Under the pieces are notes generated by a model. It worked only from the letters and a program-made list of their open reading frames with translations, was not told the DNA's origin and did not search any database. Both the position numbers and the translations under genes were made by a program. From assembly GCF_000429785.1 (NCBI RefSeq), contig NZ_KE386952.1, forward strand, positions 148,917 through 212,916: 64,000 nucleotides of DNA, in the 5' to 3' direction. Source of the DNA: Chitinibacter tainanensis DSM 15459. GTDB taxonomy: Bacteria; Pseudomonadota; Gammaproteobacteria; Burkholderiales; Chitinibacteraceae. This document shows positions 14,695 to 61,441 of the stretch, piece by piece; within the stretch, counting starts at the first letter, position 1, and each line of letters opens with the position of its first letter.

Positions 14695-14743
14695 GGGTAT
14701 ATCCTCAGAATGCTTTTACTACAAAGCCTGCAGGGCAATACCT
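14695..14743. repeat. 49-bp end-conserved element, copy 1
   Basis: Begins GGGTAT and ends ATACCT, 49 bp in all, 18 bp after the prs stop and before the rplY leader. An internal GCTTT / AAAGC pair flanks the centre. See the finding on this family. Confidence 0.8.
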
Positions 14744-14761
14744 ACAGGCTGTATAAATCAA

Positions 14762-15712
14762 TTAATCAACGAACAGGCTAGACACCGACTCTTCGTTATT
14801 GATGCGGCGCATGGTTTCCGCCAAGAGGCCCGCAATCGAAACAACGCGTACACGGCCGCTGGCTTGCGCTTCTTCCGACACCGGAATGGTGTCAGTCACT
14901 ACGACTTCATCCAGCGCCGACTGCAAGATGCGCTCTACCGCCGCGCCCGAGAATACCGGGTGAGTGGCATAAGCCATGACCTTTTTCGCGCCGAATTTTT
15001 TCAGTGCTTCAGCGGCTTTACACAGGGTATTGGCGGTATCGATCATGTCGTCGATGATGATACAGGTGCGATCTTTCACATCACCGATGATGTGCATCAC
15101 CTCAGCCACATTGGCTTTCGGGCGACGCTTGTCGATGATGGCCATATCCACACCCAGCTGTTTCGCCATCGCACGCGCGCGCAATACACCGCCCACGTCA
15201 GGAGAAACAATCATCAGGTCTTCGTGGTTTTTCGCGCGGATATCAGCCAGCAATACCGGTGTGGAATAAATATTATCCACCGGAATATCGAAGAAGCCTT
15301 GAATCTGGTCGGCGTGAACATCGACCGTCAACACGCGATCAACGCCGGCCACTTGCAGCATATTGGCTACGACTTTAGCCGAAATCGGTACCCGGGCTGA
15401 GCGCGGACGACGATCCTGGCGGGCATAACCGAAATAAGGGATAGCGGCGGTAATCCGGCCGGCCGAAGCCCGTTTCAGCGCATCCACCATCAGCATCATT
15501 TCCATGATGTTGTCGTTGGTCGGCACACAAGTGGATTGCAATACAAATACGTCACGACCACGGACGTTTTCCAGCAACTCCACCGTCACTTCTCCATCCG
15601 AGAAGCGGCCAACAGTGGCGCGCCCCAGAGAGATGTCCAGGTGATTCACTACACGCTCAGCAAGCCTTGGGTTGGCATTGCCGGTAAAAACCATGAGGCT
15701 GTCGTAAGCCAT
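14762..15712 (-). CDS. prs: Ribose-phosphate pyrophosphokinase (PRPP synthetase)
   Basis: A 316-residue class I PRPP synthetase making phosphoribosyl pyrophosphate from ribose 5-phosphate and ATP for nucleotide, His and Trp synthesis. It shows [16 protein letters not shown] near residue 38, the catalytic stretch [20 protein letters not shown], the Mg-binding [12 protein letters not shown] segment and the PRPP loop [12 protein letters not shown]. Length and all motifs are standard. It is preceded by tRNA-Gln with a hairpin between them and followed by rplY. Confidence 0.97.
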
Positions 15713-15725
15713 TTTCGATTCCTGA

Positions 15726-15770
15726 AAAACGAAAAGCGTGTAACCGGTGATTACACGCTTTTCTTTTTAT
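15726..15770. terminator. Bidirectional hairpin between tRNA-Gln and prs
   Basis: GAAAAGCGTGTAA and its complement TTACACGCTTTTC flank a 6-base loop, with T-rich sequence on both sides. It could end the ispE/tRNA transcript or be a processing/attenuation structure in the prs leader, since the prs ATG is only about 14 bp away. Confidence 0.7.
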
Positions 15771-15773
15771 AGG

Positions 15774-15850
15774 TGGCAGGGGAAGAAGGATTCGAACCTT
15801 CGCATGCCGGAATCAAAATCCGGTGCCTTAACCAACTTGGCGACTCCCCT
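15774..15850 (-). tRNA. tRNA-Gln (anticodon TTG)
   Basis: Cloverleaf on the minus strand. Acceptor AGGGGAG pairs with TTCCCCT (one G-U). The anticodon stem CCGGA/TCCGG encloses loop TTTTGAT, giving anticodon TTG. The T-arm is GAAGG-TTCGAAT-CCTTC. CCA is encoded at 15774-15776. It lies 18 bp after ispE, the usual place for tRNA-Gln in betaproteobacteria. Confidence 0.95.
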
Positions 15851-15868
15851 AACGAATTTGCCGCTGAC

Positions 15869-17337: not shown

Positions 17338-17341
17338 CCGC

Positions 17342-19084
17342 TCAAAGCCCCAGGCGCTGGCGAGTTTCCAGCGCAACCTCATCATCCGGCTGGCGCGCCA
17401 GCGCTTCATCCAGCAGCGCTTTGGCACGCGCGGTGTCGCCTTGCTGCGCCAGCACTTCAGCCAGGTGGGCGGCGACTTCAGCATCCGGCATCTGCCGGTA
17501 GGCGCGCTCTAATAATTGCTGCGCCTCGGCCACCTTACCCTGCTTAAAGCGCAACCAGCCCAGCGAATCCAGAATCACCGGATTATCCGGCTGCATCGCA
17601 ATGGCTTGCCCCAGGTAGGTATCCGCTTCAACGAGACGATCAGTACGGTTCGCCAGGATATACCCCAGGGCATTGAGCCCATTCACGCTATTGGGCTGCT
17701 GGCGCAGAAATTCGCGCAAATCCGCTTCTGCTCCGGCGTAATCGCCAGCTAGATCACGATACAGCGAGCGATCATAAAATAGCTCGGCCTCATCGGGCTG
17801 CGCCGCAACGGCTTTATCCAGCGCGGCCAATGCTTTATTCAGTTGCCGGCGCTCGCGCCAAACCTGCGCCTCGATTTGCGCTTTGCTGGCCTGCTCTTTC
17901 GCGGTGGCGACCGGTAGCGCCGCCAGCGCCTGATCGGCCTTGGCCTGCTGGCCGAGCTTGGCATACAGCCGCGGCAAGCGTGGCTGCAGCAAGGCTTGCT
18001 TATCGGCGCCCGCTTTCAAATACCAATCCACCGCATCTTGATATTGGTGTTGCTGCTCGGCCACCTGCCCCAGATACGGGGCCAGCTGGCTGGTGGCCGC
18101 GGGGTTGAGCGTGACCGAGCGCAGCAGGCTGCGCTGCGCCTTAGCCACTTCATTGAGTTGCATGGCCACCAAACCATGGCCGATCAGCGCTTCGAGCTGA
18201 TCCGGGTTTTTCGCCAGCACTTGCTCGTAGGCGCTCAGGGCCGGCACTAATTCGCCACTATCTGCCGCCAAGCGCGCTTGCGCGAGTACCACGCCCAGCG
18301 ATTGCGGATTATTTTTTGCAGCCTGCGCCAGTAGTTGGGCTGAGGCTTGCGGGTCTTTGCCTTCCAGCAGCTGCACTTTATACAGCACCGCTGGCTCCCA
18401 ATCTGGCCGCTGCTTCAGGGCCAGATTCAGCTCGGCCAGCGCCGGGTCGATTTGCTTGGCGCCACCATAGCCAACCGCGCGCGCAAAATGCGCCTCGGGC
18501 AGATTATCGTAGCGTGCAGTTAGCTCGAGCGTGAGATCGAGTACGGCTTGGCGATCCACTTCTTTGGGCCACAGCTGATGCATTTGCAGGAAAAAGGGCG
18601 CCACTTCGCTGGGCTTAGCTGCAAACATCGCTTGCAGATGCGGCTTGGCTTCAATCAGCCGGCCACTACGCAGTAATAAGCTCACCATCAGCTGCCGTGC
18701 CGCGAGCGCCTCGGGGGCGGCGGCAATCCAGATTTCGGTCGCTTCCTGTGCCAACACCAATTGCCCCGACGCCACGGCAAGCTGAGCCGCTCGCTGCGCC
18801 ACGCGTGGGTCTTTGGATTTGCGCGCCAGATCCACCCAGGCTTCGGCGGCGAGGCCAAATTGACCACGTTGCGCTGCGATATCACCCACTAGGAAGCGCA
18901 ACATCAGCTCATCGCTCATTTCCAGCTTGGGTAGCTGCGCTTCGCTGTATTGGGGCAGCGCATCGGCATCATTATCGGCGGCAGCCGGCGTCGGGCTGGG
19001 GGTGGCCGCTGGCGGCAAGGTACTGGCGCAGCCACCCAGCCATAAACTCAGGGAAACCAGGACAGCACGAAGGGGGAAAGTCAT
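17342..19084 (-). CDS. TPR-repeat lipoprotein
   Basis: A 580-residue protein with a lipoprotein signal (MTFPLRAVLVSLSLWLGGC, Cys 19), a Pro/Ala-rich linker, then roughly a dozen tetratricopeptide-type helix pairs rich in Ala, Leu and Gln. Clear TPR units near the C-terminus include LNALGYILANRTDRLVEAD and ILDSLGWLRFKQGKVAEAQ. Such proteins commonly precede lolB in betaproteobacteria, but the specific role is unknown to me; a scaffold at the cell envelope is the likely function. ATG 19084 gives the lipobox; the 9-residue longer frame has no better RBS. Confidence 0.88.
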   Translation of the reverse strand: MTFPLRAVLVSLSLWLGGCASTLPPAATPSPTPAAADNDADALPQYSEAQLPKLEMSDELMLRFLVGDIAAQRGQFGLAAEAWVDLARKSKDPRVAQRAAQLAVASGQLVLAQEATEIWIAAAPEALAARQLMVSLLLRSGRLIEAKPHLQAMFAAKPSEVAPFFLQMHQLWPKEVDRQAVLDLTLELTARYDNLPEAHFARAVGYGGAKQIDPALAELNLALKQRPDWEPAVLYKVQLLEGKDPQASAQLLAQAAKNNPQSLGVVLAQARLAADSGELVPALSAYEQVLAKNPDQLEALIGHGLVAMQLNEVAKAQRSLLRSVTLNPAATSQLAPYLGQVAEQQHQYQDAVDWYLKAGADKQALLQPRLPRLYAKLGQQAKADQALAALPVATAKEQASKAQIEAQVWRERRQLNKALAALDKAVAAQPDEAELFYDRSLYRDLAGDYAGAEADLREFLRQQPNSVNGLNALGYILANRTDRLVEADTYLGQAIAMQPDNPVILDSLGWLRFKQGKVAEAQQLLERAYRQMPDAEVAAHLAEVLAQQGDTARAKALLDEALARQPDDEVALETRQRLGL

Positions 19085-22134: not shown

Positions 22135-22893
22135 ATGGATGATCTGCAACTGGAAATTTGCGCCGGCTCGGTCACATCGTGTCTAGCGGCACAGGAAGGC
22201 GGCGCGCACCGGGTCGAATTTTGCGACAACCTACTTGAAGGTGGCACCACGCCCTCTTATGGCCAGCTGGCAGCCGCGCGCGATCGGCTCTGGATCACGC
22301 TGAATGTTATTATCCGCCCACGCGGCGGCGATTTCCTGTACAGCGATCTGGAATTCGAAGTGATGGAGCGCGATGTGCTGATGTGCAAGAAGATAGGGGT
22401 GGATGGTATTGTCATCGGGCTCTTAAACGCCGATGGCTCCGTCGATATACCCCGTACTCAGCGCCTGGTTGAATTGGCCGGGCCGTTGCCGGTGACCTTC
22501 CATCGTGCCTTTGATGTTGCGCGCGATCCGCAGCAAGCGCTGGAAGACATTATCCGCTGCGGCTGCACCAAACTGCTGTCGAGTGGGCAAGCGCCCACGG
22601 CGCTGGAAGGCGCGGCATTGCTACGCGAATTACAGCTGCAGGCTGGCACGCGCCTGCAGGTCATGCCGGGGGCGGGCGTGCGGGCCCACAATATTGCCGA
22701 GCTGGTGCGCGCCACCGGCTGCCGCGAATTTCATAGCTCCGGCCGCGCCGCCGCTGCCAGTGGCATGCAGTATTTCAACCCGCAGGTCAAAATGGGCGCA
22801 CCGGGCCAAGATGAATACAGCCTAGTGGAAACCCGCGCCGATCTGGTACGCGAATTACTCGCCAATGCGCGCAGCGCGCTGAGCGCCGCCTAA
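22135..22893 (+). CDS. cutC: CutC family protein
   Basis: A 252-residue TIM-barrel protein. Family signatures are EICAGSVTSCLAAQEGGAHR at the N-terminus, NVIIRPRGGDFLYS, the HRAFDVARDPQQALEDI stretch and a late MPGAGVRAHNI / HSSGR segment. CutC was named for copper homeostasis in E. coli, but the biochemical role remains unsettled. The start is fixed by GAGGAGGA immediately before ATG 22135. It converges with the downstream oxidoreductase gene with only 3 bp between stop codons. Confidence 0.93.
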   Translation: MDDLQLEICAGSVTSCLAAQEGGAHRVEFCDNLLEGGTTPSYGQLAAARDRLWITLNVIIRPRGGDFLYSDLEFEVMERDVLMCKKIGVDGIVIGLLNADGSVDIPRTQRLVELAGPLPVTFHRAFDVARDPQQALEDIIRCGCTKLLSSGQAPTALEGAALLRELQLQAGTRLQVMPGAGVRAHNIAELVRATGCREFHSSGRAAAASGMQYFNPQVKMGAPGQDEYSLVETRADLVRELLANARSALSAA

Positions 22894-22896
22894 ACC

Positions 22897-23958
22897 TTAA
22901 ATTACGGCGATGCGGCGCCCTTCGGCGCTGCTTTGCCGAGCCAGATCGAGGATATGCATCACCTCACGGGCTTGATGCCCGGGCACCGGATTAGGCGCCT
23001 CGCCCAGAATCGCCTGGCGGATCTGGCGGTAGTAGGCCAGATAATCGCCGGCCGGCAATGGCAATTTATCTACCAGGGTATCGTCGCCTGAGGCTTGTAG
23101 AATATCGGCCTGGCGCGTATCCCTACCCCAGGTATCTTGATCTGGCCGGGCGCCGTCTTTGAGCCAGCCTTCCTGATGGTCAAGACCATTGACCTTAAAT
23201 GCCGCCTGACTACCCTGCACCAAAAAGCGCGGGGTACCGCCATGCACCAAGGTACCGGCCGAGAGCACGGCGCGCATGGTCTTGTAATGCAGCACCACGT
23301 GAAAATCATCGACCGTGAGCGCGCCTTCACGGCGCAAGCTTAAGTCGGCGCTCACCGCCTCGGGGGGGCCAAATAATTGCAGCGCCTGATCCACCAGATG
23401 CGGGCCTAAGTCATACCAAAGCCCGGCGCCCGGCACATCGGCCTCGCGCCAGCGCGACCGCACCTGTGGGCGGAAACGATCAAAATGGCTGGTAAACGAG
23501 ACAATATGCCCCAAGCGACCCGCCCGTACGCAGGCGGCCAACGCCAGATAATCGCTATCCCAACGGCGATTGTGAAACACCGACAGCAAGAGTCCGGCGG
23601 CATCGGCTCGCGCCACCAGATCATCGGCTTCGCGCAAATCCAGCGTAAATGGCTTATCGATCACCACATGCTTGCCCGCCGCCAGTGCGGCGCGAGCCAG
23701 CGGATAATGGGTTTCATTGGGGGTGGCAATCACAATCAGATCGAGCCCCGGATGCGTAATCAGGCGATCGGGCTCGGTTTTGATCACGCAATCGGGCCAG
23801 TCGGCGATCACATCGGCGGGGCGGGAGCTGGCAATCGCCGTGAGCTGCAAACCGGGGCAACTATCAATCAGCGGCGCGTGGATCGTTTTTCCGGCATAGC
23901 CATAGCCAATCAATCCGACTTTCAATACTGCGGCATCCGTCACAGCCAACTCCTGCAT
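22897..23958 (-). CDS. YdgJ-type Gfo/Idh/MocA oxidoreductase
   Basis: A 353-residue NAD(P)-binding oxidoreductase. The Rossmann motif GLIGYGYAGKTIHAPLI opens the protein; IDKPFTLDL carries the conserved Lys of the EKP-type motif; SVFHNRRWDSDYL, HFDRFRPQVRSRWRE and GLWYDLGPHLVDQA closely follow E. coli YdgJ as I recall it. The substrate is unknown, presumably a sugar or polyol. ATG 23958 gives the usual N-terminus; the longer frame to 24027 is unlikely. Confidence 0.92.
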   Translation of the reverse strand: MQELAVTDAAVLKVGLIGYGYAGKTIHAPLIDSCPGLQLTAIASSRPADVIADWPDCVIKTEPDRLITHPGLDLIVIATPNETHYPLARAALAAGKHVVIDKPFTLDLREADDLVARADAAGLLLSVFHNRRWDSDYLALAACVRAGRLGHIVSFTSHFDRFRPQVRSRWREADVPGAGLWYDLGPHLVDQALQLFGPPEAVSADLSLRREGALTVDDFHVVLHYKTMRAVLSAGTLVHGGTPRFLVQGSQAAFKVNGLDHQEGWLKDGARPDQDTWGRDTRQADILQASGDDTLVDKLPLPAGDYLAYYRQIRQAILGEAPNPVPGHQAREVMHILDLARQSSAEGRRIAVI

Positions 23959-24129
23959 CAAAACAGCCGCCACTGTATAGCGATTCAGGGCGTGTGTCAG
24001 TAAGGTGTTTACGGTGTTTTGCTGCACCGCAACCCCTCTTCAAACCCGCAATGTGATGTAGTTCAAACAAAAACAAGGCTTTAGCTTTCTTTACAATCAC
24101 AAGCAATGCCAAGCAAAGCTTACGCCACG

Positions 24130-24648: not shown

Positions 24649-26868
24649 TTAGTGTGCGCGTTGCGGGGCGGCCACCGGCAAGCGCAGGATAAAGCGGGTG
24701 CCCTCACCCAGCGTACTTTCCACCCGGATATCGCCACCGAGCACCGAATGCACAATGTTGTAGACAATATTCAGCCCGAGGCCCGACCCCCCTTGCCCCA
24801 GTTTGGTGGTAAAGAAGGGCTCGAAAATCCGTGAAAGATGCTCGGCGGGGATGCCACAGCCATTGTCCGCCACCACCATTTCCAGCTCGCTAGGGCTCAC
24901 CCGCCGCGCCGTCACCGTCACCCTGCCATCATCGCGGCCGGCAAAGGCGTGGTTTTCGGCATTGGCGATCAGGTTATTCAGCACCTGCGCCAGTGCCCCG
25001 GGGTAGCTATCCAGCCACAATTCGGCCGGCACTTCGCTAGACAGCCGCTCGGCCGAATACAGCACGCTCATGGTTTGCATCACCTGCTGCACAGATTCGG
25101 CCAGCTCGAAGCGCCGACGCTGATCGCTGGTTTGATCCACCGCCACCTGCTTAAAGCTACTGACCAATTGCGCCGCCTGCTGCAGATTGCGCATCAAGAT
25201 CTGCAAGCCCTGCTCGGTAACCTCAACATATTCGGTGAGGGCTGCTTTGCGCAGCGTTTGCTGCGACAGCTGCTCGGCCAGCTCGCGATTTTTCTCCTGC
25301 AAGGTTGAGCCCATGGTGACCCCGACCCCAATCGGGGTATTGAGCTCATGCGCCACCCCGGCCACCAGATTGCCCAGCGCGGCCATTTTCTCTGATTCCA
25401 CCAGCATGCGCTGGGTGGCTTTGAGCTGGGCGATGGTGTCTTGCAAGACAGCATTGGCCTCGACCAGCTCCCGCGTGCGCTGGGCGACAGTTTCTTCCAG
25501 ATGCTCGGCATGGTGAGTGACCGCATGCAGATAGCTGGCCCGCTCGCGAGCCGTGGCTGCCACTTGGTGAAAACTATCCTGCCAAGCTCGCGACACGGAT
25601 GGCGCTTCGCTGTCGGGCGCGTTTTGTACCCGCCCCACAAAATCCACCAACCGTAGTGCCGGCCAGGCAAAAAAGTAAGAAATCGCCCACGCTGCACACA
25701 ACAGCAAGGCCAGTAGCCCCACCATCACCAGCGAGGTGGCTTGCTGGGTGCGGGCATTGGCTTGCTGCAATTCCAGCGCCGAAAAATACACCAGCAGATG
25801 CCATTGCTTGCCCTTCACCGGCAGCCCCAGCCAATACCAGTTACCGGCCTGCTGAAAGCTGCTGCGCTTGCCAGCCACTAGGCTAGCCAGCGGAATCTGC
25901 CGCAAATCCGCCGGGAGTATATCGCCCAACTTGAGGATATCCTTGGCATTCAGCACCATACCCTCATCATCGGCCAGTACATTGCCCACCGAATCAACGA
26001 CCAGCGCGTGCCCGAGCAGGTTTTGCTCATGCCGCAACACATTGGCGAACATCTTGAGCGTGACATCGGTGCCCACCACCCCGGCATACTGCTGCTCGAC
26101 GTACAGCGGGTGCAATAAGCTCACCATCGCGCCCTTGCCGCCCGCATCGTAATACGGCGTCGTCCAGCGCATTTCGCGGTTGGGATTGCGGGTGGGCGAC
26201 ATCAGCTGGACCGGGCGAGTGCCACCGGCATCAAACACCACTTTGAGCATGCTGGCGGTATCTTTGGTGCCTGTGGCCTGCCATAGCTCAGGCTCGGCGA
26301 TATGCGGATAAATTGAAGAAAAATCTTCGCGTGGCGAGTAGTAATACGACCACTGAAAAAAGGGGTGAGCCTGATGCGTCGCATGCATCAGCGCAAAGGC
26401 GCTCATGGCGGCGTCTACTTCCCGCGCCAACTGCGGCTGGCTAAGCGCTTGTGGCGCCACCAGCGCCTCACCCAGTCGTTCACGCCACCAGGGTTTGAGC
26501 TTTTCCCCAATCAACGCCCCGCTACCACTGCGGCGCACCCCCTGGCTGCTGAGCTCTTGCCACACAGCGGGCGACCAGCCGAGCGCGGGCTTTTGCAACA
26601 CATCGGTCATTTGCTGACCCAAGCGCTGCAAATGACTGGTGGCCACCTCGGTTAGCTGCTCGAACGACAGCCGTTGCTGCTCGGCCCGCGCCTGCGTCAG
26701 CGCCAGTAGCCGCGCCTCGCCGGCGGCTTCGGTGTGTTGCTGGTAATACCACAGGCCTGCCAGCACGGGCAGTACCATCGCCAGCAAAGAGAGCACAAAT
26801 TGCCGCTGCAAGCGCCGCAACGGCCGGCCGCTGGCCGGGGCAATGGCAGGAGAGGAAGGGGTATGCAT
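24649..26868 (-). CDS. Membrane sensor histidine kinase with dCache domain
   Basis: A 739-residue kinase. One membrane segment is at about 25-45, followed by a periplasmic double-Cache-type sensor at about 46-370 (MVSLLHPLYVEQQYAGVVGTD is typical) and a second segment at about 378-402. A coiled region then carries the H-box GVAHELNTPIGVGV (His near 506). The ATPase domain shows an N-box NAENHAF, a G1 box DNGCGIPAEH, an F-box FEPFFTTK and a G2 box GSGLGLNIV. Cache sensors bind small molecules such as amino or organic acids. No response regulator lies beside it, so it is an orphan kinase here. The C-terminus lacks a receiver. Confidence 0.92.
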   Translation of the reverse strand: MHTPSSPAIAPASGRPLRRLQRQFVLSLLAMVLPVLAGLWYYQQHTEAAGEARLLALTQARAEQQRLSFEQLTEVATSHLQRLGQQMTDVLQKPALGWSPAVWQELSSQGVRRSGSGALIGEKLKPWWRERLGEALVAPQALSQPQLAREVDAAMSAFALMHATHQAHPFFQWSYYYSPREDFSSIYPHIAEPELWQATGTKDTASMLKVVFDAGGTRPVQLMSPTRNPNREMRWTTPYYDAGGKGAMVSLLHPLYVEQQYAGVVGTDVTLKMFANVLRHEQNLLGHALVVDSVGNVLADDEGMVLNAKDILKLGDILPADLRQIPLASLVAGKRSSFQQAGNWYWLGLPVKGKQWHLLVYFSALELQQANARTQQATSLVMVGLLALLLCAAWAISYFFAWPALRLVDFVGRVQNAPDSEAPSVSRAWQDSFHQVAATARERASYLHAVTHHAEHLEETVAQRTRELVEANAVLQDTIAQLKATQRMLVESEKMAALGNLVAGVAHELNTPIGVGVTMGSTLQEKNRELAEQLSQQTLRKAALTEYVEVTEQGLQILMRNLQQAAQLVSSFKQVAVDQTSDQRRRFELAESVQQVMQTMSVLYSAERLSSEVPAELWLDSYPGALAQVLNNLIANAENHAFAGRDDGRVTVTARRVSPSELEMVVADNGCGIPAEHLSRIFEPFFTTKLGQGGSGLGLNIVYNIVHSVLGGDIRVESTLGEGTRFILRLPVAAPQRAH

Positions 26869-26974: not shown

Positions 26975-28363
26975 TTAGCCGCCAATGCGCTCGCGCCATT
27001 TAGCGACTTGCACCAAGACCTGGAATGGCGCAGTACCGCCCACGTGGTTGCGGGCGTCGAGCGAGCCTTGCAACGTCAGCACTTGCTGCACGTCGTCTTC
27101 GATCAGTGGCGAGAAGGATTTAAGCTCCACCAAGGTCAGATCAGCCAAATCTTTTTTCTTCTCTTCGGCATACCGCACCGCCAGTGCAACCGCTTCGTGC
27201 GCGTCACGGAATGGCAGGCCGCGTTTCACCAGGTAATCGGCCAGGTCAGTTGCGGTGGCAAAGCCTTGTTTCGCAGCGCGTTCCATCGCTTCCGGTTTCA
27301 CAGTAATGCCACGCATCATGTCGGCGTAAATACGCAATGTGTCGGTCAGCGTATCAACGGTGTCAAACAGACCTTCTTTGTCTTCCTGATTGTCTTTGTT
27401 ATACGCCAGCGGCTGGCCTTTCATCAGCGTGAGCAAGGCAATCAAATGGCCATTTACACGGCCAGTTTTCCCGCGCACGAGCTCAGGCACGTCGGGGTTT
27501 TTCTTTTGCGGCATGATCGAGCTGCCGGTACAGAAACGATCAGCAATATCGATAAAGCCGTAGCGTGGGCTCATCCACAAAATCAATTCTTCTGACAGGC
27601 GCGACAAATGCGTCATGATCAGTGCGCCAGCGGCGGTAAATTCAATCGCGAAGTCACGATCTGACACAGCATCGAGCGAGTTTTCGCAAATGCCTTCAAA
27701 GCCCAGCAATTTCGCGGTAATGCTGCGATCGATCGGGAAAGTGGTCCCTGCCAGTGCCGCAGAGCCCAACGGCATGCGGTTCACGCGTTTGCGCGCGTCG
27801 GCCAAACGCTCAGCATCACGGCCCAGCATCTCAACATAGGCGAGCATATGGTGGCCAAACGTCACCGGCTGCGCTACCTGCAAATGGGTAAAACCGGGCA
27901 TAACGGTGCTGGCGTTTTTCTCGGCCAGATCCACCAATGAGTGCTGCAGATCACGTACCAAGCCCAAAATCAAATCAATCGCGCCGCGCAGATACAGGCG
28001 GATATCGGTGGCCACTTGGTCATTGCGGGAACGGCCAGTGTGCAGGCGTTTACCAGCGTCGCCGATTTTATCGGTCAGGCGGCGCTCGATATTCATGTGC
28101 ACGTCTTCCAGATCCAGGCTCCACTCGAAGCGGCCGGCGCGGATATCATCCAGAATGTCGGCCATGCCGCTTTGGATGGCGCGCAGATCTTCATCCGACA
28201 ACACGCCCACCTGATTAAGCATGCCGGCGTGCGCCAGTGAGCCCTGAATATCGACTTCCGCCATGCGGTTATCAAAAAAGACCGACGCGGTATAGCGTTT
28301 CACCAGCTCAGAAACGGGCTCGTTAAAACGGCCAGACCAGGTTTTATTGGCGGAATCAGACAT
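26975..28363 (-). CDS. argH: Argininosuccinate lyase
   Basis: A 462-residue enzyme of the fumarase/aspartase superfamily that splits argininosuccinate into arginine and fumarate, the last step of arginine synthesis. [10 protein letters not shown] opens the protein. [13 protein letters not shown], the catalytic [13 protein letters not shown] segment and the signature [12 protein letters not shown] are all present. The start at 28363 is chosen because upstream in-frame codons to 28498 overlap an intergenic repeat and have no family match. It is a single gene with its own terminator. Confidence 0.97.
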
Positions 28364-28482: not shown

Positions 28483-28531
28483 AGGTATTAAGCTGCAAAG
28501 CAAGATAATCATAGCCTTGGCAGCAATACCC
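28483..28531. repeat. 49-bp end-conserved element, copy 2
   Basis: AGGTAT...ATACCC, 49 bp, ending exactly one base before the complement of the TAG stop of the RsuA-type gene, and about 120 bp upstream of argH. Confidence 0.85.
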
Positions 28532-29251
28532 CTAGCCCTGCCGTTGCAAAATCGCCAGCTCGGCCTCGGAGAGAAAACGCCATTCGCCCTCGGCCAGATC
28601 AAGATCGGCCAGCTGCAGCTCGCCAATCGCGGTACGCGTCAGCGCCGCACAGTGATTGCCCGCGGCGGCCAGCATGCGTTTCACCTGATGATATTTGCCT
28701 TGTTCGAGCACGATTTCAATCTCGAACTCGCCCAGCTGGCGCGCGCTCAGCGCCGCAATTGGCGCGGGCTCGTCAATCAGTTGCACGCCTTTCAGTAGGC
28801 TTTGCACGAGTGTCTCATCCACCGGGCGGGCGGTGGTGGCGCGGTAGGTTTTCGGCTGATGGCGCTTGGGCGAGCTTTGCGCATGAATAAACGCGCCATC
28901 GTCTGATAGCAGCAACAGCCCAGTGGTGTCGTGATCCAGCCGGCCTACTGGCTGCACATCGCGCCATTCCATGTTTTCGGGAAACAAATTCAAAATCGGC
29001 GGGTGATGGCTGGGCTTGCGCGAACATTCGTAACCGCTGGGCTTATTGAGCACCAGATACACTTGCGCGCGGTATTCCCACTCTTCGTCAAACACGGTGA
29101 ATTTCAGCCCTTCGGGGATAAATTCGGTTTTCCAGCTGGTGACCGTTTCGCCATTTACGGTGACTTCACCGTCTTCGATCAGCTCACGACAGCCTTTGCG
29201 CGAACCAAAGCCCTGGCTTTGCAAAATCCGGTCTAAGGAAAGTTTTTTCAT
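28532..29251 (-). CDS. rsuA: RsuA-family 16S rRNA pseudouridine synthase
   Basis: A 239-residue protein: an S4 RNA-binding domain at about 1-60 (LSLDRILQSQGFGSRKGCRE, ELIEDGEVTVNG), then the synthase domain with catalytic Asp in VGRLDHDTTGLLLLS and the later GKYHQVKRMLAAAGNHC motif. By family it makes pseudouridine 516 of 16S rRNA; RluB/E/F-type paralogues are possible alternatives. ATG 29251 opens the conserved S4 domain; the longer frame to 29464 is antisense to the next gene's leader. The TAG stop abuts a 49-bp element. Confidence 0.9.
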   Translation of the reverse strand: MKKLSLDRILQSQGFGSRKGCRELIEDGEVTVNGETVTSWKTEFIPEGLKFTVFDEEWEYRAQVYLVLNKPSGYECSRKPSHHPPILNLFPENMEWRDVQPVGRLDHDTTGLLLLSDDGAFIHAQSSPKRHQPKTYRATTARPVDETLVQSLLKGVQLIDEPAPIAALSARQLGEFEIEIVLEQGKYHQVKRMLAAAGNHCAALTRTAIGELQLADLDLAEGEWRFLSEAELAILQRQG

Positions 29252-29995: not shown

Positions 29996-30229
29996 ATGCC
30001 GCACCCCACGCGCCGCTGGCATCCAAAAAAATTGCTACGCAGCAAATGGACCGCCGTACAGCCGAAAGAAAAAGAGAAGCACTTTATCGTTGTGCGGGTC
30101 GAAACCGACCCGAATAATATCCAGCGCATGACCGACATTACGCTGGAGGCGGTGTTTACCCGCCGGCACTTTACCGTGCACTGGAGCGAGCTGAGCAACA
30201 CCGAGCACTGGAAGGTAGGCTGGGTATAA
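29996..30229 (+). CDS. Small conserved protein of the TIGR02450 type
   Basis: A 77-residue basic protein: KLLRSKWTAVQPKEKEKHF, then DITLEAVFTRRHFTVHWSEL and a final W-x-x-GW. This pattern recalls the TIGR02450 family found beside diverse genes in proteobacteria; its role is unknown. ATG 29996 has AGGA upstream. Its stop codon (GTA-TAA) lies inside a 49-bp element that begins at 30222, so the element supplies the end of the gene. Confidence 0.8.
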   Translation: MPHPTRRWHPKKLLRSKWTAVQPKEKEKHFIVVRVETDPNNIQRMTDITLEAVFTRRHFTVHWSELSNTEHWKVGWV

Positions 30230-30270
30230 GCCCATCGGCCTTTAAAATAAAAGCCTAGAGGCCTATACCC
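30222..30270. repeat. 49-bp end-conserved element, copy 3
   Basis: GGGTATA...TATACCC, 49 bp. The inner arms GGC and GCC are symmetric about the centre, with an A/T-rich middle. It contains the stop codon of the preceding small gene and ends 15 bp before the ppiC-type stop. Confidence 0.88.
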
Positions 30271-32022: not shown

Positions 32023-32071
32023 GGGTATCCAGCCACAAGCCTTATAGTTAAAAGCGTAGCCGCGCATACCC
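32023..32071. repeat. 49-bp end-conserved element, copy 4
   Basis: GGGTAT...ATACCC, 49 bp, in the 267-bp gap between the CinA-like and patatin-like genes, 130 bp past the former's stop. It is the copy farthest from a stop codon. Confidence 0.85.
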
Positions 32072-34403: not shown

Positions 34404-34452
34404 GGGTATCTTAACAGAAGCCAATCAGATTAAAGATTACAAGGGCATACTA
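34404..34452. repeat. 49-bp end-conserved element, copy 5 (degenerate right end)
   Basis: GGGTAT at 34404 and ATACTA ending at 34452, 49 bp. Only the right end departs from consensus. It is 25 bp beyond the stop of the paeA-type gene and 24 bp before the MFS start. Confidence 0.6.
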
Positions 34453-36689: not shown

Positions 36690-36738
36690 GGGTATTAACC
36701 CCACAGGGCGTACTGACAATCCCCAGCTGACAATACCC
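36690..36738. repeat. 49-bp end-conserved element, copy 6
   Basis: GGGTATT...AATACCC, 49 bp, 10 bp after the stop of the 125-residue gene. A further stray AATACCCC lies just before it. Confidence 0.85.
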
Positions 36739-41160: not shown

Positions 41161-41209
41161 AGGTATTGCTGCGTAACGCGCATTGAGTAAGGGCTGTGGC
41201 CTTATACGC
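41161..41209. repeat. 49-bp end-conserved element, copy 7 (degenerate right end)
   Basis: AGGTATTGC at the left and ATACGC at the right, 49 bp. It lies between convergent genes and contains the TAA stop of the minus-strand 96-residue gene (GTA-TAA, as in copy 3). Confidence 0.65.
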
Positions 41210-41585: not shown

Positions 41586-42542
41586 TTACATTTTGTCCTG
41601 TGGCCAACGCCAAGCCAGCAAGCGGCTGACTTTTTGCCCCTGACTCATTGGCAACACCCGGACTTCGGCCGCGCTATGCAGCGCGCGCTGTAGGGCAGGT
41701 AAATGCTCGCTTTTTGCCACCAGCGTGGTAAACCAGCCCACTTGGCGGGCAAATTGCCGGCTCTCTTCGATCATCCGGCCAATAAAGGCCAGCTCGCCCC
41801 CGGCGCACCACAGCTCATTGCTCTGGCCGGCAAAATTTAGCGGCGCGGCGCCCGCCTTGGTCTGCTCCAAATTGCGCACTTTGCGCGCCGTCCCGGCATT
41901 GGCTTCGGCGGCATTGCGGTGAAACGGCGGGTTGCAGAGGGTAAAGGCAAAATACTCGCCGGGCTCAATCACGCCCCGGAAGATCTGCTTGGGCTCACGT
42001 TGCCAGCGGGTGACTAAGCCATCCGCCAGCACCGGATTCGCGGCAAAGATGCGCGCCGCATTACTGAGCGCCGCGCGATCGATATCAGCGCCGACAAACG
42101 ACCAGCCATAGCTCACGCGCCCTAAGAGGGGATAAATGGCATTGGCCCCTACGCCGACATCCAGCACCCGCACCGTTGGGCCGCGTTGCGGCTTGCCAGC
42201 AGAATCCAGCAATAGATCAGCCAGGGTATGGATGTAGTCAGCGCGACCAGGAATGGGTGGGCACAGATACCCCGGGGGGATATCCCATTCGCCAATCCCG
42301 TAATGCAGCGCCAGCAAGGCGCGGTTGAGGGTCTTTACGGCATTCGGGTCGGCAAAATCTATGGTCGGCTCCCCGCGCGGATTGGTGCGCACCAGCGCGG
42401 CGAGCTCGGGTAGGCAGGCGGTGAGCGCAGCAAAGTCATAGCGCCCTTGATGCGGATTGCGTGGATGCAGCTGCCCTTTGGGTGCAGAGCGGGCCGACAG
42501 TGGAGCCCGCGAACGGGGCTTGGGGGCAGTGGAGCGAGACAT
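41586..42542 (-). CDS. rlmF: 23S rRNA (adenine(1618)-N6)-methyltransferase RlmF
   Basis: A 318-residue SAM-dependent methyltransferase. A basic N-terminus with LHPRNPHQGRYDF is followed by DIPPGYLCPPIPGRADYIH, the SAM-binding LDVGVGANAIYPLLG and the catalytic NPPFHRN motif (N-P-P-F type for adenine N6). These all match RlmF, which methylates A1618 of 23S rRNA. ATG 42542 is preferred over TTG 42551. Confidence 0.95.
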   Translation of the reverse strand: MSRSTAPKPRSRAPLSARSAPKGQLHPRNPHQGRYDFAALTACLPELAALVRTNPRGEPTIDFADPNAVKTLNRALLALHYGIGEWDIPPGYLCPPIPGRADYIHTLADLLLDSAGKPQRGPTVRVLDVGVGANAIYPLLGRVSYGWSFVGADIDRAALSNAARIFAANPVLADGLVTRWQREPKQIFRGVIEPGEYFAFTLCNPPFHRNAAEANAGTARKVRNLEQTKAGAAPLNFAGQSNELWCAGGELAFIGRMIEESRQFARQVGWFTTLVAKSEHLPALQRALHSAAEVRVLPMSQGQKVSRLLAWRWPQDKM

Positions 42543-44005: not shown

Positions 44006-44054
44006 GGGTATCTACCCCAAAGCCCTAATTAGAAAGGCACGCGACCAGATACCC
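44006..44054. repeat. 49-bp end-conserved element, copy 8
   Basis: GGGTATCT...AGATACCC, 49 bp, with an 8-bp perfect terminal inverted repeat. The inner GCC/GGC pair is symmetric about the centre (positions 17-19 and 31-33). It begins 9 bp after the trpS stop. Confidence 0.88.
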
Positions 44055-44872: not shown

Positions 44873-44921
44873 GGGTATGGCGCGTCAGCACTGAATAGAT
44901 ATCGCACTCAGGGCAATACCT
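44873..44921. repeat. 49-bp end-conserved element, copy 9
   Basis: GGGTAT...CAATACCT, 49 bp, starting 3 bp after the stop of the binding-protein gene. Another GGGTAT stands 4 bp beyond its right end but has no partner at the right distance. Confidence 0.8.
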
Positions 44922-47674: not shown

Positions 47675-47723
47675 GGGTATTGCCCCCTAAACATTATTTG
47701 ATAATAGCTAGCGAGCGATACCC
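47675..47723. repeat. 49-bp end-conserved element, copy 10
   Basis: GGGTAT...ATACCC, 49 bp, with ATTAT-ttg-ATAAT symmetric about the centre. It begins 14 bp beyond the stop of the Ser-rich gene on the minus strand. Confidence 0.88.
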
Positions 47724-51100: not shown

Positions 51101-51149
51101 AGGTATCAAGCTGAAACCATTATTTAGCAATGGTTTTAACGTAATACCC
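51101..51149. repeat. 49-bp end-conserved element, copy 11
   Basis: AGGTAT...ATACCC, 49 bp, 3 bp after the kinase stop. The inner arms AAACCATT and AATGGTTT are an 8-bp perfect inverted repeat exactly symmetric about the centre. Confidence 0.9.
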
Positions 51150-52847: not shown

Positions 52848-52882
52848 AAAAGCCTAGAGGTATATCCCTCTAGGCTTTTCTA
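52848..52882. terminator. Bidirectional hairpin overlapping a 49-bp element
   Basis: AAAAGCCTAGAGG and CCTCTAGGCTTTT flank a short loop, with A-run and T-run at the two sides, between the radical SAM gene and the response regulator gene. The left end of element copy 12 lies in its loop. Confidence 0.75.
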
Positions 52883-52906
52883 AACATTGGATAGCAAGCA
52901 ATACCC
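52858..52906. repeat. 49-bp end-conserved element, copy 12
   Basis: AGGTAT...ATACCC, 49 bp. It ends one base before the complement of the TAG stop of the radical SAM gene. CTAG occurs on both sides in this copy only, so it is not a general target duplication. Confidence 0.88.
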
Positions 52907-54808
52907 CTAGTATTGATTCAGCGCCTTCGCGATAAAATGTTTGGGCACAGTCGGGCGCGGCACGCGGATTTCGAACCAGCTGCGCACGTCTTCATCCAGC
53001 AGATTGCCATGCATATAGTTGTACAGCGCTTTATTCAGGCCACGCCCCATCAGATCGTGATCAATCGGGGTGCGATCGATAAAGCCCACATCGTTTTTGG
53101 CGAAAGTGACTTTGGGCAGCGGCACCAGCTCAACGCCGTATTCTTCCGGGTTTTGCCCCACTGGCGAATGCACGGTACAGGCAAAGCGGTGAAAGAAGCC
53201 CGACTGAATACAGCCGGCGGCAAACAGCTGGCGCACGTATTCCAGCGCATCCACGGTGTCTTGCACCGTTTGGGTCGGAAAGCCGTACATCAAATAGGCA
53301 TGCACTAGGATACCGGCCTGCGCAAAGCCATAGGTCACGCGCGCCACCTGATCAACCGAGACGCCTTTTTTCATTAATTTCAGCAGGCGATCCGAGGCCA
53401 CTTCCAGCCCGCCCGAAATGGCAATGCAGCCACTATCGGCCAAGAGTTGGCATAGCTCCGGGGTAAAGGATTTTTCAAAGCGGATATTGCCCCACCACGA
53501 AATCGTGACATTGCGCCGCAACAGCTCTTCGGCCAGCGCTTTAAGCATTTTGGGTGGCGCCGCTTCATCCACGAAATGAAAGCCGGTTTGCCCGGTTTCG
53601 GCGATGATGGCCTCGATACGATCCACCAGCATTTCGGCGGTGGTGGTTTCGTAGCGGGAAATATAATCCAGCGTAACATCGCAAAAGCTGCACTTTTTCC
53701 AGTAACAGCCATGCGCGATGGTGAGTTTATTCCAGCGCCCATCGCTCCACAGCCGGTGCATGGGGTTGAGCATATCCAGCAGCGACAAATACTGATGAAT
53801 CGGCAGGCCATCCCACGTAGGCGTGCCGACCTCGCTAAAAGGCACATCCGGCTCGGGCCAATTGATGTATTCCACTTTGCCAGCCGCATTGCGGATAAAG
53901 GTACGCACCAAGCGCTGCGCGCTGCGCTCGCCACGCAAATGCGCCAGCAAGGCCAGCAAGGGGCGCTCGCCATCATCCAGCGTAACAAAATCAAAGAAAT
54001 CAAACACGGCTGGCTCGGCCAGCTCGCGCAGCTCGGTATTCACAAAGCCGCCACCCAGGGCGATTTTCACCTGTGGGGCATGCTGGCGGATCGTTTGCGC
54101 AATCCGGAAAGCCGCGTACACCGCGCCGGGAAAAGGTACCGACAGCAGCACCAGCGTCGGCTGATGCCGCGCCAGCGCGGCCAGAGTCAGCGCCTGCAAA
54201 GTTTGGTCAACCAGATTGACGGGGGCCGCCAGTGCGGCGGCCAGCGGCGCAAAGCTGGGCTGCGACATCGCCAGCGATTCGGCATAGCGGACAAACTCAA
54301 AGCGCGGATCAATCGCTTCGCGCACCACGTCGGCCAGATCATTCAGATACAAAGTGGCCAAATGCCGCGCGCGATCGTAGCTGCCCAGCGCACCAAAGGC
54401 CCAATTGAGCGGATCACCCGAGCCATCGTCCACATAGCTTTCCAGCGCGGCAAAGCGCGCGCCTTCGGGCAGATAGGTGCGATTGGCAATCCGGTGCGCC
54501 AGTGTATTGTCACGCCCCTGCAAAAAGGCCATGACTGGGTCAATGGTGCTGTCGTAATGGCTGAAATTGAGCAAGAAATGCTGTACGGCCAGGCTACGCT
54601 GCTTGCGCGGTAGCTTTTCGCATTCACGGCGAATCTCGCTGAGCCCCACGCGGGAAAACAGCCTGAGCACCAGCGCCAACGCCAGATCTTCCTGCACCGC
54701 AATTTCTTGATTCGCTCGCAAAAAGCCGGTGATATACGCCGTGGATGGGTACGGCGTATTGAGCTGCGTCATCGGCGGAATCAGCGAAAGAATGCGAAGT
54801 TCAGACAT
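52907..54808 (-). CDS. B12-binding-domain radical SAM protein
   Basis: A 633-residue protein. The N-terminal half (about 180-310) has a cobalamin-binding-like Rossmann segment (TLVLLSVPFPGAVYAAF, KIALGGGFVNTEL). The radical SAM core follows with Cys 368, 373 and 376 in GCYWKKCSFCDVT, that is CX4CX2C rather than the common CX3CX2C. ISGGLEVASDRLLKLMKKGV and YLMYGFPTQTVQDT are typical later core motifs. The substrate is unknown. No partner peptide or biosynthetic genes lie beside it. Its TAG stop abuts element copy 12. Confidence 0.87.
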   Translation of the reverse strand: MSELRILSLIPPMTQLNTPYPSTAYITGFLRANQEIAVQEDLALALVLRLFSRVGLSEIRRECEKLPRKQRSLAVQHFLLNFSHYDSTIDPVMAFLQGRDNTLAHRIANRTYLPEGARFAALESYVDDGSGDPLNWAFGALGSYDRARHLATLYLNDLADVVREAIDPRFEFVRYAESLAMSQPSFAPLAAALAAPVNLVDQTLQALTLAALARHQPTLVLLSVPFPGAVYAAFRIAQTIRQHAPQVKIALGGGFVNTELRELAEPAVFDFFDFVTLDDGERPLLALLAHLRGERSAQRLVRTFIRNAAGKVEYINWPEPDVPFSEVGTPTWDGLPIHQYLSLLDMLNPMHRLWSDGRWNKLTIAHGCYWKKCSFCDVTLDYISRYETTTAEMLVDRIEAIIAETGQTGFHFVDEAAPPKMLKALAEELLRRNVTISWWGNIRFEKSFTPELCQLLADSGCIAISGGLEVASDRLLKLMKKGVSVDQVARVTYGFAQAGILVHAYLMYGFPTQTVQDTVDALEYVRQLFAAGCIQSGFFHRFACTVHSPVGQNPEEYGVELVPLPKVTFAKNDVGFIDRTPIDHDLMGRGLNKALYNYMHGNLLDEDVRSWFEIRVPRPTVPKHFIAKALNQY

Positions 54809-55496: not shown

Positions 55497-55545
55497 GGGT
55501 ATTGCCGCGTAGACCTTACCTATTAACGAGTACAGAGCTATACCC
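55497..55545. repeat. 49-bp end-conserved element, copy 13
   Basis: GGGTAT...TATACCC, 49 bp, filling nearly the whole 54-bp gap between two convergent genes: 3 bp from one stop and 2 bp from the other. GTA/TAC and TTA/TAA inner pairs are symmetric about the centre. Confidence 0.9.
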
Positions 55546-59868: not shown

Positions 59869-60215
59869 GGCGAGTTCCTCAATGGGGTGTCTGATTCACT
59901 ATAAATCAGCGCGCCAAAATTGCTGCACTGCATACACGCCCAGTTTTGCGACAAAACAAACTTAGCCAAACACGGCGCCAAGCCCCAAATACCCCACCTA
60001 AGTAATTGCTTGCAAGCCTGTCTAGTAATTGCTCATATTGGCATACCCAAGGAAAAAATCATGCGAAGTGGGCAGTTACACCAGCTACTTAACCGCTATC
60101 GCCTCCCACTGCGGGTTATTTTTATTCATCACTACCTTGCATTACAAAGTAGCTTGTTTTACTCTAAACATATCGCCGGATGATGCCGATCTCATCCGCC
60201 CTACAGCGAGGACGC
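59869..60215. other. Divergent regulatory region between the six-PAS receptor and padR
   Basis: About 347 bp. It holds CTGATT/AATCAG (59891-59909, inverted), a 10-bp direct repeat AGTAATTGCT at 60001-60010 and 60024-60033, the palindrome GCTTGCAAGC between them, and ATACCC at 59989 and 60043 without proper partners. A 40-codon ORF at 60061-60183 is listed separately. The A/T-rich part near 60120-60170 probably contains the padR promoter. Confidence 0.5.
60061..60183 (+). CDS. Possible 40-residue peptide upstream of padR
   Basis: ATG 60061 is preceded by AAGGA at good spacing, and the frame ends 32 bp before the padR start. The product would be basic, with a hydrophobic middle (LPLRVIFIHHYLALQ). 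It might be a leader peptide or chance; there is no homology argument. Confidence 0.2.
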   Translation: MRSGQLHQLLNRYRLPLRVIFIHHYLALQSSLFYSKHIAG

Positions 60216-60560
60216 ATGAAAACGCAATTACGCAAAGGCACATTAGAGATGTGCGTGCTGGCGGTGCTGGCGCAGCAAGATAGCTATGTGTATGAGCTGG
60301 TGGGCCGACTATCGGCCAGCATGGAAATCAGCGAGGGCACGATTTATCCGCTGATGCGCCGCCTGCAGGCCGATGCCTGGGTGAGCACTTATCTCACCGA
60401 ATCCAGTAGCGGCCCGGCCCGCAAGTACTACCGGCTCACCCCGGCAGGGCAAACCGCGCTGGCGCAAATGCAGCAGGAATGGGCAAGTTTTGTGAGTGAA
60501 ATCAATCAGGTGCTGCACGCTCATGCCGCACCGCAAGGAGTGGATCATGCAACAAACTGA
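60216..60560 (+). CDS. PadR-family transcriptional regulator
   Basis: A 114-residue winged-helix repressor. QLRKGTLEMCVLAVLAQQDSY is the PadR N-terminus, EISEGTIYPLMRRLQADAW the recognition helix and wing, and RKYYRLTPAGQTAL the beta-wing/dimer region. GAGG precedes ATG 60216. It overlaps the following HAAS-domain gene by 14 bp, a pairing widespread in bacteria in which PadR controls the operon. The direct repeat at 60001-60033 is a candidate site. Confidence 0.92.
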   Translation: MKTQLRKGTLEMCVLAVLAQQDSYVYELVGRLSASMEISEGTIYPLMRRLQADAWVSTYLTESSSGPARKYYRLTPAGQTALAQMQQEWASFVSEINQVLHAHAAPQGVDHATN

Positions 60561-61380
60561 GTTTCTGAATCAGCTGGAAGCCGCTTTGCAGGCCTTGCCA
60601 GCAGCCGAGCGAGCTGAAATTTTGGCCGATTACCGCGCTTATTTTGCCGATGGGCTGGCCGATGGCCGCAGCGAGGCGGAAATTGCCATGGCGCTGGGCG
60701 ATCCGGCGCGGCTGGCGCGTGAGCTATTGGCCGAACGATGCCTGCAAAGCTGGGAAGCACATAAATCCCCGCGCAATCTGTGGGGAGCGCTGGTGGCGCT
60801 GGGCGGTCTTGGGATCATTAATGTGCTGCTGGCGCTGCCGTATTTGCTGATGCTCACGGTGTTGTCGAGTTTATGGCTGGGCGCACTGGGGATTACATTC
60901 GCCGGTTTACTACTCACCGGCACTTGGGCCACGCAAACCGTGTTTGGCTGGCCCAGCCTTAACCACAGCTGGGCCACGGTGGCGCAGGATGAAACCGGCT
61001 GGCCATGGGCGGGCCGGCAAGCGGGTGAAATTTGGGCCAGCGGCCCGGCCGGTGAATCGGTGCATATTCAGCGACAAAGCGATGGCCAGGTAATTATTCA
61101 GGCCACCGATGGCGACGATGAACTGCATATCCGCCGGGATGCCAGCGGCGCGGTGCAGGAGATTCGCGCCAGCGATGGAGAAAACGTACTGAATATTGGC
61201 GGCTGGATGGGGCCAACGCCGGGGGCGCTGCTGGCCACCGGCTTGGGTCTACTGCTGTTGGGTGGTTTTGGTGTGGTGGTCGGTGGATTGATTTTGCGCG
61301 CCATCTGGCGTGGTACCGGGCGCTGGCTCCGCTGGCAAGCCGAGTTGGTGAGCGGGCAAACGACTCAATCAGCAGTCTAA
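60547..61380 (+). CDS. HAAS-domain (DUF1700-like) membrane protein
   Basis: A 277-residue protein. The N-terminal HAAS-type helical domain (about 1-65) shows FLNQLEAALQALPAAERAEI and DGRSEAEIAMALGDPARLAREL. A membrane segment or pair lies at about 80-135, a beta-rich external part contains ASGPAGESVHIQRQSDGQVI, and a last membrane segment is near 220-250. AAGGAG precedes ATG 60547 inside padR. HAAS proteins pair with PadR regulators and are thought to signal at the membrane; the ligand is unknown. Confidence 0.87.
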   Translation: MQQTEFLNQLEAALQALPAAERAEILADYRAYFADGLADGRSEAEIAMALGDPARLARELLAERCLQSWEAHKSPRNLWGALVALGGLGIINVLLALPYLLMLTVLSSLWLGALGITFAGLLLTGTWATQTVFGWPSLNHSWATVAQDETGWPWAGRQAGEIWASGPAGESVHIQRQSDGQVIIQATDGDDELHIRRDASGAVQEIRASDGENVLNIGGWMGPTPGALLATGLGLLLLGGFGVVVGGLILRAIWRGTGRWLRWQAELVSGQTTQSAV

Positions 61381-61392
61381 AACTTGAATGCA

Positions 61393-61441
61393 GGGTATAT
61401 AGCCACAGCCATTGATTTAAAAAGGCTGCAGGCATATACCC
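61393..61441. repeat. 49-bp end-conserved element, copy 14
   Basis: GGGTATAT...ATATACCC, an 8-bp perfect terminal inverted repeat in 49 bp. Inner AGCC (15-18) and GGCT (32-35) are symmetric about the centre, with an A/T core. It fills the gap between convergent genes and its last base is the first base of the minus-strand TAG stop complement. Confidence 0.9.

Follow-up and report, generated by a model that had tools for sequence, protein, structure and literature searches.

What kind of signal keeps two short inverted ends at one exact distance, leaves the sequence between them almost free and recurs all along a bacterial chromosome? The question is raised by a 64-kb stretch of Chitinibacter tainanensis DSM 15459 (contig NZ_KE386952.1, positions 148,917 to 212,916), hereafter the window, in which fourteen segments of the form RGGTAT-N37-ATACCY, each 49 bp long, had been noted at gene 3' ends. 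Our analysis indicates that the element works as a dyad in duplex DNA rather than as a stem, and that it is limited to three related genera. We tentatively suggest, at a little under an even chance, that its copies form a chromosome-wide architectural or segregation network of sites for a predicted DNA-bending dimer or tetramer. We found no description of an RGGTAT-N37-ATACCY element in the open-licence literature searched, and few bacterial DNA signals known to us are equally long, numerous and evenly spaced.

A dyad of exactly 49 bp

The window holds 15 strict matches to the pattern while 100 dinucleotide shuffles hold none, and the source genome (3.43 Mb in 17 contigs) holds 398 while the reversed-pattern control gives 0, so the excess over chance claimed in the original prediction is real. 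All of its fourteen segments contain the element: 12 are strict, and those starting at 34404 and 41161 are degenerate, as it had stated. The length is exact, as had also been claimed. When RGGTAT and ATACCY were scanned at varying gaps over 857 kb of the source genome, 109 pairs were counted at gap 37, 4 at gap 38 and 1 at gap 36, with 0 to 2 pairs at each of the remaining gaps from 0 to 199. An iterated symmetric weight matrix of 79 columns detects 267 sites in these 857 kb, a density that corresponds to about 1,000 in the whole genome. It detects none in the reversed sequence, and 0 to 2 in the reversed-sequence controls for pieces of other carrier genomes. A real dyad-symmetric family with free interiors, as originally described, is borne out. 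No window site matched an Rfam 15 covariance model at the gathering score, and the permissive matches touching the site at 51101, from a search of positions 28000-62000, are far under the cut-off.

Each half-site has RGGTAT, with GTAT as its core. A weaker A-R-N-C lies about one turn of the helix further in, and the A/T-rich centre follows. Bases 3-6 (GTAT) are nearly invariant and bases 1-2 are mostly GG. In the interior, A is found at position 15 in 72% of the sites and C at position 18 in 58%, positions 20-21 are A/T-rich, and a weak preference extends 10 bp beyond the site. The distance between the two cores is 43 bp, and pyrimidine-purine steps peak at 4-5, 6-7, 12-13, 14-15 and 21-22. 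We infer from these letters that the DNA would be bent and its contacts spaced by about one turn of the helix, the cores at about 4 and 46 and the weaker contacts at about 14.5 and 35.5.

Two side observations concern the composition of the sites. The degenerate end base seems to follow the replichore skew: of 86 sites on contig C1 of G000, 23 have T at position 49 and 2 have A at position 1, while of 15 sites in the window, 2 have T at position 49 and 4 have A at position 1. The site interiors of G014 (genus g10) look more alike than those in genus g1, with AGCCATTT/AAATGGCT arms.

Two half-sites read in the duplex

Compensatory change would be expected if the ends paired as RNA or as single-stranded DNA, and the original prediction had read the symmetric arms in this way. 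We sorted the mismatches at the ends over the 857 kb into classes, with expectations from hexamer counts and totals obtained by summing rows. Sites with one exact end and a single mismatch in the other number 86 against 5.6 expected; 66 of the 86 mismatches affect base 1 or 2, and base 3 is never affected (1.0 by chance). Double changes at the same position number 4 when still pairing (2.3 expected) and 5 when not pairing (2.25 expected), and those at different positions number 28 (21.6 expected). The ends therefore change one-sidedly, with paired doubles near chance, so that compensatory change is not the rule and the ends behave as two half-sites read in the duplex.

The inner arms were also checked for covariation, and opposite bases of the interior pair about as often as they would if independent, with z reaching 2.5 to 2.7 only for 7-43, 8-42 and 14-36. 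The strongest couplings are between neighbouring bases (e.g. 29-30, 28-29, 20-21, 37-38 and 13-14), and 17-33 is the sole across-dyad pair in the top 40 (z 2.8). The interior symmetry is mostly the shared preference of two half-sites. Arm pairing over 15 pairs is 8.31 against 7.85 expected in intergenic sites (z 3.1), while intragenic sites have no excess (z -0.1). Among other carriers, z for the excess ranges from 0.3 to 1.9, and it is 5.1 for G044 plus G046, where many orthologous sites are shared and the same loci are partly counted twice. A T-run is absent on the transcript side, the T fraction in 125 contexts being 0.275 downstream and 0.287 on the other side. We rejected an RNA stem on the strength of the half-site test, the near-independent arms and the absence of T-runs.

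Position relative to genes

The sites were placed relative to 776 genes from a simple purpose-made caller; one of the 109 exact sites and one of the 267 matrix sites stayed unclassified, with a called gene missing on one side. Among the 108 exact sites classified, 41 lie in genes, 34 in tandem gaps, 29 in convergent gaps and 4 in divergent gaps, where uniform placement over the intergenic room would give 10.8 convergent and 14.3 divergent ones. The 266 matrix sites divide into 132 in genes, 77 tandem, 47 convergent and 10 divergent. The location at gene 3' ends claimed at the outset thus holds as an enrichment but not as a restriction. The accompanying statement that no copy lies within a gene is right for the fourteen segments, bar overlaps with called gene ends of 8 bp each at 30222 and 41161 and 1 bp at 61393, and wrong for the family, as the strict sites at 9401, 17617 and 42224 lie in called genes. 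The 35 exact sites deep inside genes have the same interior preferences (for example, 59% with A at position 15 and 1% with A at position 10), and both strands and all three phases are represented among them. The sites are not tied to gene ends, and they avoid divergent (promoter) regions. With about half of the sites in coding sequence, selection there seems unrelated to the encoded proteins.

The convergent-gap enrichment, the often short distance to stops, the intergenic sites that fill an entire gap (55497) and the slight arm pairing of intergenic sites, also seen in G044 plus G046, could be taken for the marks of a transcription 3'-end element, that is a hairpin terminator, a processing site or a protein roadblock between genes. 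We regard this explanation as improbable. An exact length is foreign to hairpin terminators, and of the three features that define an intrinsic terminator the element has neither the compensatory stem nor the T-run, while the third, a location after genes, is at variance with the exact sites found inside them. An RNA 3'-end or processing role is not the primary function because of these intragenic sites, deep ones included, the little arm pairing, the one-sided end changes and the lack of a T-run. A minority of intergenic copies may additionally have an RNA 3'-end role.

Origin in place in one gene and conservation of the ends

A MATE transporter gene, for which 30 loci were fetched from the 43 genomes of the family (the two g10 carriers fall outside this set), carries a strict site in 6 of 6 genomes of genus g1, 3 of 7 of genus g11 and 0 of 17 non-carriers; the aligned row of G056 is void, being in the wrong frame at this segment, and its site scan is unaffected. 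The aligned codons of site-bearing and site-free homologues differ by substitutions only, with no length change. At the right end of the site the nine site-bearing genes use the Ile codon ATA, which accounts for 2.5% of the Ile codons in called genes, whereas at the same position the four site-free g11 genes have Ile ATT and the non-carriers mostly Leu, with some Val or Ala. These codons suggest selection on the DNA inside the gene. The alignment speaks against insertion at this locus, where the site came about through substitutions in place. A second matrix site near the end of the MATE gene is present in 13 of 13 carriers and 0 of 17 non-carriers, and the non-carrier G011 has a matrix match elsewhere in its MATE locus.

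The many copies with inverted ends might otherwise call to mind a dispersed mobile element such as a miniature inverted-repeat transposable element (MITE), a REPIN or an integron attC-like element. We give this explanation practically no weight, since the substitution-only differences in the one gene aligned across genera led us to reject it: the MATE-gene site is built from ordinary codons with its length unchanged, and among the 30 loci, one row of them void, this single locus has no element-length difference of the kind that marks a MITE or REPIN. The interiors moreover share no copy-like sequence, one locus's interior has drifted without indels, and no constant target-site duplication had been seen in the fourteen segments.

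The drifted interior comes from a comparison of G044 with G046, which have about 92% identical DNA and 14 and 18 strict sites, respectively, in the compared pieces. Eleven of the 14 sites of G044 can be aligned in G046 and all 11 are strict there; 15 sites of G046 can be aligned in G044, of which 11 are strict and 4 differ in one end, at base 1 or 2. Identity is 131/132 for the end letters, 86% for the interiors and 90-92% for the flanks. The ends stay and the interiors drift, the ends being conserved at the DNA level. Sites of the window that are kept in place with an interior hard to align are those at 36690 and 47675 in G005 and the one at 55497 in G002 and G003.

Limits of the clade and of the chromosome

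All 15 genomes of the genera g1, g10 and g11 have 217-452 strict matches each, whereas the 28 genomes of the same family in eight other genera have 0-5, and the 145 genomes outside the family in a 150-genome draw of the order have 0-4. In named genomes, 1.36 Mb of sequence surrounding 80 argH relatives yielded no copy; gene content and betaproteobacterial argH relatives suggest Chitinibacteraceae as the family of the carriers. When made stricter, the pattern matched 15 stretches of viral contigs, once each, which we took for chance. We also considered that the sister genera may use the same dyad with another sequence, and a scan for inverted 5- and 6-mers with gaps of 12-99 in one 80-120 kb region per non-carrier genus, five genera in all, gave nothing comparable. 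What leads the inverted pairs in 3 of the 5 non-carrier genera is pairs of A-runs and T-runs at fixed gaps of about 16-21 (L188-L209), probably intrinsic terminators. A separate inverted pair, GCGGGA with gap 60, has four copies in each 200-kb piece of G044 and G046 (L210-L229).

Within the carriers, the sites are scarce in DNA that looks acquired. A 20-kb stretch of G005 (L235, 900-920 kb) that encodes apparent phage capsid and portal proteins, judged by eye, has no site. The plasmid-like contigs G044:C2, G044:C3, G002:C2 (33 of 43 kb) and G002:C3 have 2 sites of at least 10 bits in about 122 kb, where about 35 would be expected at the chromosomal densities of 195 and 385 per Mb, the latter taken from one 52-kb piece and perhaps high. 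The plasmid assignment rests on contig size plus kfrA genes in three of the contigs; G002:C4, with 6 sites in 29 kb, may be chromosomal. The number of sites in 10-kb bins rises with GC (Spearman 0.48, p 2e-5), so that low-GC DNA has fewer sites. The samples behind the depletion in acquired DNA are small. As an observation on the plasmid-like contigs themselves, G002:C2 (L302, L303) has three equal-scoring kfrA matches at 13.5-kb steps, which suggests a plasmid assembled as a concatemer.

Even spacing

The spacing of the 227 sites in a 735-kb piece was compared with 2,000 simulations of random placement that keep each site's class. The mean spacing is 3.2 kb and its coefficient of variation (CV) is 0.72, against 1.10 +/- 0.07 in the simulations. 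Only one of the 226 intervals is shorter than 500 bp (45.6 expected), the smallest being 398 bp, and 4 intervals fall between 10 and 20 kb (about 12 expected). The remaining pieces and genomes were tested against uniform placement. Intervals below 500 bp number 0 against 5.9 expected in a second piece of the source genome, 3 against 12.9 in G005 and 0 against 3.6 in G044. Even spacing is also found by CV in G046 (35 sites) and G014 (13 sites), and it is not significant in G015 (8 sites). In the larger samples, then, the sites are evenly spaced. One stretch of G005 (L239) was excluded from the test; at 10376-15146, seven sites recur in it every 795 bp exactly, each apparently belonging to a different unit of a long repeat, which a tandem-repeat finder with a longest period of 500 did not show.

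Even spacing, 3'-end preference, promoter avoidance and the phasing of flexible steps by about one turn would also fit a site preferred by a topoisomerase or gyrase, at which supercoils are relieved behind genes. We consider this very improbable. Gyrase is, to our knowledge, universal in bacteria whereas the element is clade-limited, and the 4-base staggered cut implies an even dyad whereas the present one, of odd length, passes through a base pair.

A predicted protein and its task

The form of the site leads us to predict a protein that reads DNA with two identical heads set a fixed distance apart; the cores must lie 43 bp from each other. Each element would be the duplex dyad binding site for this one sequence-specific protein, most likely a dimer or a dimer of dimers, which would bend or wrap some 50-70 bp of DNA. 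About 1,000 such sites, one per ~3.2 kb and kept apart, would form a network over the chromosome proper of the three genera, and the protein would act on the whole chromosome, for example through regularly placed architectural or segregation anchors. A task at the level of the chromosome is suggested by the number of sites, their even spacing, their mutual avoidance and their confinement to the chromosome. We note that sites of nucleoid proteins are likewise expected to be duplex, dyad-symmetric and distributed chromosome-wide, as these are.

A broader statement, to which we give an even chance, leaves the use of the network wider: a clade-specific predicted protein would read half-sites 43 bp apart on bent DNA, and the roughly 1,000 even sites, kept between closely related species, would mark the cell's own chromosome, either as loop or segregation anchors or as a self-mark against phage and plasmid DNA. 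Selection on them would be strong enough to maintain them within coding sequence, at the cost of a rare codon in one gene or more.

The second of these uses leads to a signal of self-recognition like the DNA uptake sequences, read by a competence receptor or by a defence or repair enzyme, so that DNA carrying it is preferentially taken up, spared or repaired. We see this as possible and rather unlikely. The DNA uptake sequences (DUS) of Neisseriaceae and the uptake signal sequences (USS) of Pasteurellaceae have one to two thousand copies with a large share in genes, are clade-limited and are underrepresented in newly acquired DNA, according to excerpts of two accounts (PMC1939737, PMC7811141). 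The present element resembles them in its ~1,000 copies, its clade limits, the many copies in genes and its depletion in acquired DNA. Its history also looks uptake-like, with an origin in place, copies both in genes and at 3' ends and a sharp limit to the clade, and the scarcity of sites in prophage-like, plasmid-like and low-GC DNA would suit self-recognition. On the other hand, uptake sequences are short and, in the excerpts of PMC1939737, not palindromes, whereas the present element is a strict, bipartite 49-bp dyad. Uptake sequences also frequently lie near one another: for USS10 of Haemophilus, 23% of the copies have a neighbour within 100 bp in the passages of PMC7811141 that bear on this, as opposed to the minimum of 398 bp in the 735-kb piece, although shorter intervals occur in congeners. 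The present copies avoid each other in the larger samples, with close pairs in the pieces of G001-G004 (10/67 intervals). One author finds uptake sequences less even than compaction would require and cites Karlin et al. for significant even spacing (PMC1939737, in excerpt). Overall, even spacing and mutual avoidance favour architecture, and excess information favours self-recognition.

Several results weigh against the architectural network. The information in the site is 29.5 bits, a value somewhat high as the matrix was trained on thresholded sites, while 11.6 bits are needed for its number in the source genome; such an excess is more in keeping with discrimination from foreign DNA than with an architectural mark of purely internal use. 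Single sites turn over, as many of those in the window are absent or cannot be aligned in congeners: of the 15 strict sites in the window, most were not found in the 40-52 kb retrieved for each congener, 5 to 14 being without an aligned place, and the strict aligned copies number 0 in G001, 2 in G002, 1 in G003, 1 in G004 and 3 in G005. In the pooled syntenic pieces of G001-G004 the intervals below 500 bp are about as frequent as by chance (10 against 11.5 expected; CV p 0.05), the shortest interval in G002 being 53 bp. The exact sites alone have no regularity (CV 1.02), as would be expected for a thinned subset.

The cognate protein, finally, was not found among the candidates checked by their presence in the 43 genomes of the family. 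Members of the HU/IHF family number 4-5 per carrier (n=15), and among the 28 non-carriers 15 have 3 and the rest 4-6. A stand-alone HU-type paralogue in the source genome (C6:38866-39162, L251) has orthologues in the other 14 carriers at 53-90% identity. Full-length copies with 61-62% identity also occur in 7 of 9 genomes of the site-free genus g7, one of them containing a stop codon; an eighth g7 genome has a fragment, and no matching dyad was found in 80 kb of the g7 genome G051. We regard this paralogue as a lead, not a solution. H-NS and KfrA fail as candidates in this comparison, as their presence across the 43 genomes does not cleanly track the sites. Inspection by eye of the genes beside divergent sites revealed no clear autoregulated DNA-binding protein.

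If the predicted protein organises the chromosome, the sites provide a ready anchor map at about 3-kb pitch, on which regular organisation is directly testable with the site-free sister genera as natural controls. If the sites are instead a self-recognition signal, they represent an uptake or self-mark system of new architecture.

Comparison with known repeats

The matS, SlmA and parS sites are palindromes of about 12-16 bp in tens of copies or fewer, each with a chromosome-level binding protein; the present site is likewise palindromic, but its half-sites are 43 bp apart and its copies number ~1,000. Repetitive extragenic palindromic (REP) sequences and bacterial interspersed mosaic elements (BIME) are palindromic, lie at gene 3' ends in hundreds of copies, share their sequence and form hairpins linked to a transposase. 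The present element differs in its free interior and in arms that hardly covary. The highly iterated palindrome HIP1 of cyanobacteria, whose function is unsettled, is found both in and between genes as is our element, but is an 8-bp contiguous palindrome instead of a 49-bp bipartite dyad.

Close precedents are the spaced motif pairs of fixed length and unknown function detected statistically by Tong et al. 2017 (PMC5217627). They include GAATCCAT(N)23ATGGATTC with 52 copies near gene 3' ends in Bradyrhizobium, CCTAC(N)19TAGGT with 57 copies partly between convergent genes, and CGAAA(N)19TTTCG widely distributed in Mycobacterium genes; the copy numbers in section 13 are at most 125, and the pairs in Table 7 are 0-16% in genes (PMC5217627). 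Like the present element, these are pairs with a fixed gap, several of them palindromic and located at gene 3' ends, but their sequence and spacer differ. Judged by these parts of the paper, the general kind is known, and the present element differs in size, copy number and even spacing.

Sites in the window

The matrix finds 23 sites of at least 10 bits in the window. They are given here with their weight-matrix scores, exact meaning a strict match to the pattern; strand is entered as '.' for all of them. Nine lie beyond the fourteen segments first noted, eight in genes and one, a degenerate site at 60000..60048 (31.5), in a divergent intergenic region. Three of the eight are exact: 9401..9449 (23.7) in the called gene 8100-10145, 17617..17665 (25.5) in 17342-19084 and 42224..42272 (18.5) in 41586-42542. 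The ends of the last are kept in G002, G003 and G005, to which protein constraint may contribute. Four have one end mismatch, namely 594..642 (23.2) in a called gene that starts before the window, 22404..22452 (18.0) in 22135-22893, 23076..23124 (24.4) in 22897-24027 and 25915..25963 (25.1) in 24649-26868, and the eighth, 12989..13037 (20.4) in 12245-13303, is degenerate.

Tandem intergenic positions are occupied by the exact sites at 14695..14743 (41.1), 28483..28531 (35.1), which adjoins the stop of the gene at 28532, 32023..32071 (31.6), 36690..36738 (28.9), which has a counterpart with a diverged interior at the same place in G005, 44006..44054 (30.3) and 47675..47723 (41.3), whose place is also kept in G005. 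Convergent genes flank the exact sites at 30222..30270 (38.9), 8 bp into a called gene end, 51101..51149 (41.1) and 61393..61441 (43.0), together with the degenerate site at 41161..41209 (one mismatch, right end ATACGC, 26.1), again 8 bp into a called gene end. The exact site at 55497..55545 (39.1) fills its whole convergent gap, 3 and 2 bp from the stops, and that at 44873..44921 (30.8) lies 3 bp past a stop codon. The degenerate site at 34404..34452 has the right end ATACTA (26.8). The top score in the window, 47.3, belongs to the exact site at 52858..52906, at the stop of the radical-SAM gene 52907-54808, a label taken from a Pfam run on ten window proteins.

Two other features of the window were noted. 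The argininosuccinate lyase gene at 26975-28363 (-) has many betaproteobacterial proteins among its best named matches, its best match (75%) being an unclassified gammaproteobacterial metagenome-assembled genome. At 6499-6584 (-) the window matches the Rfam family RF02837 (anti-hemB, Burkholderia RNA 7) with 50.5 bits, the gathering score being 49.5.

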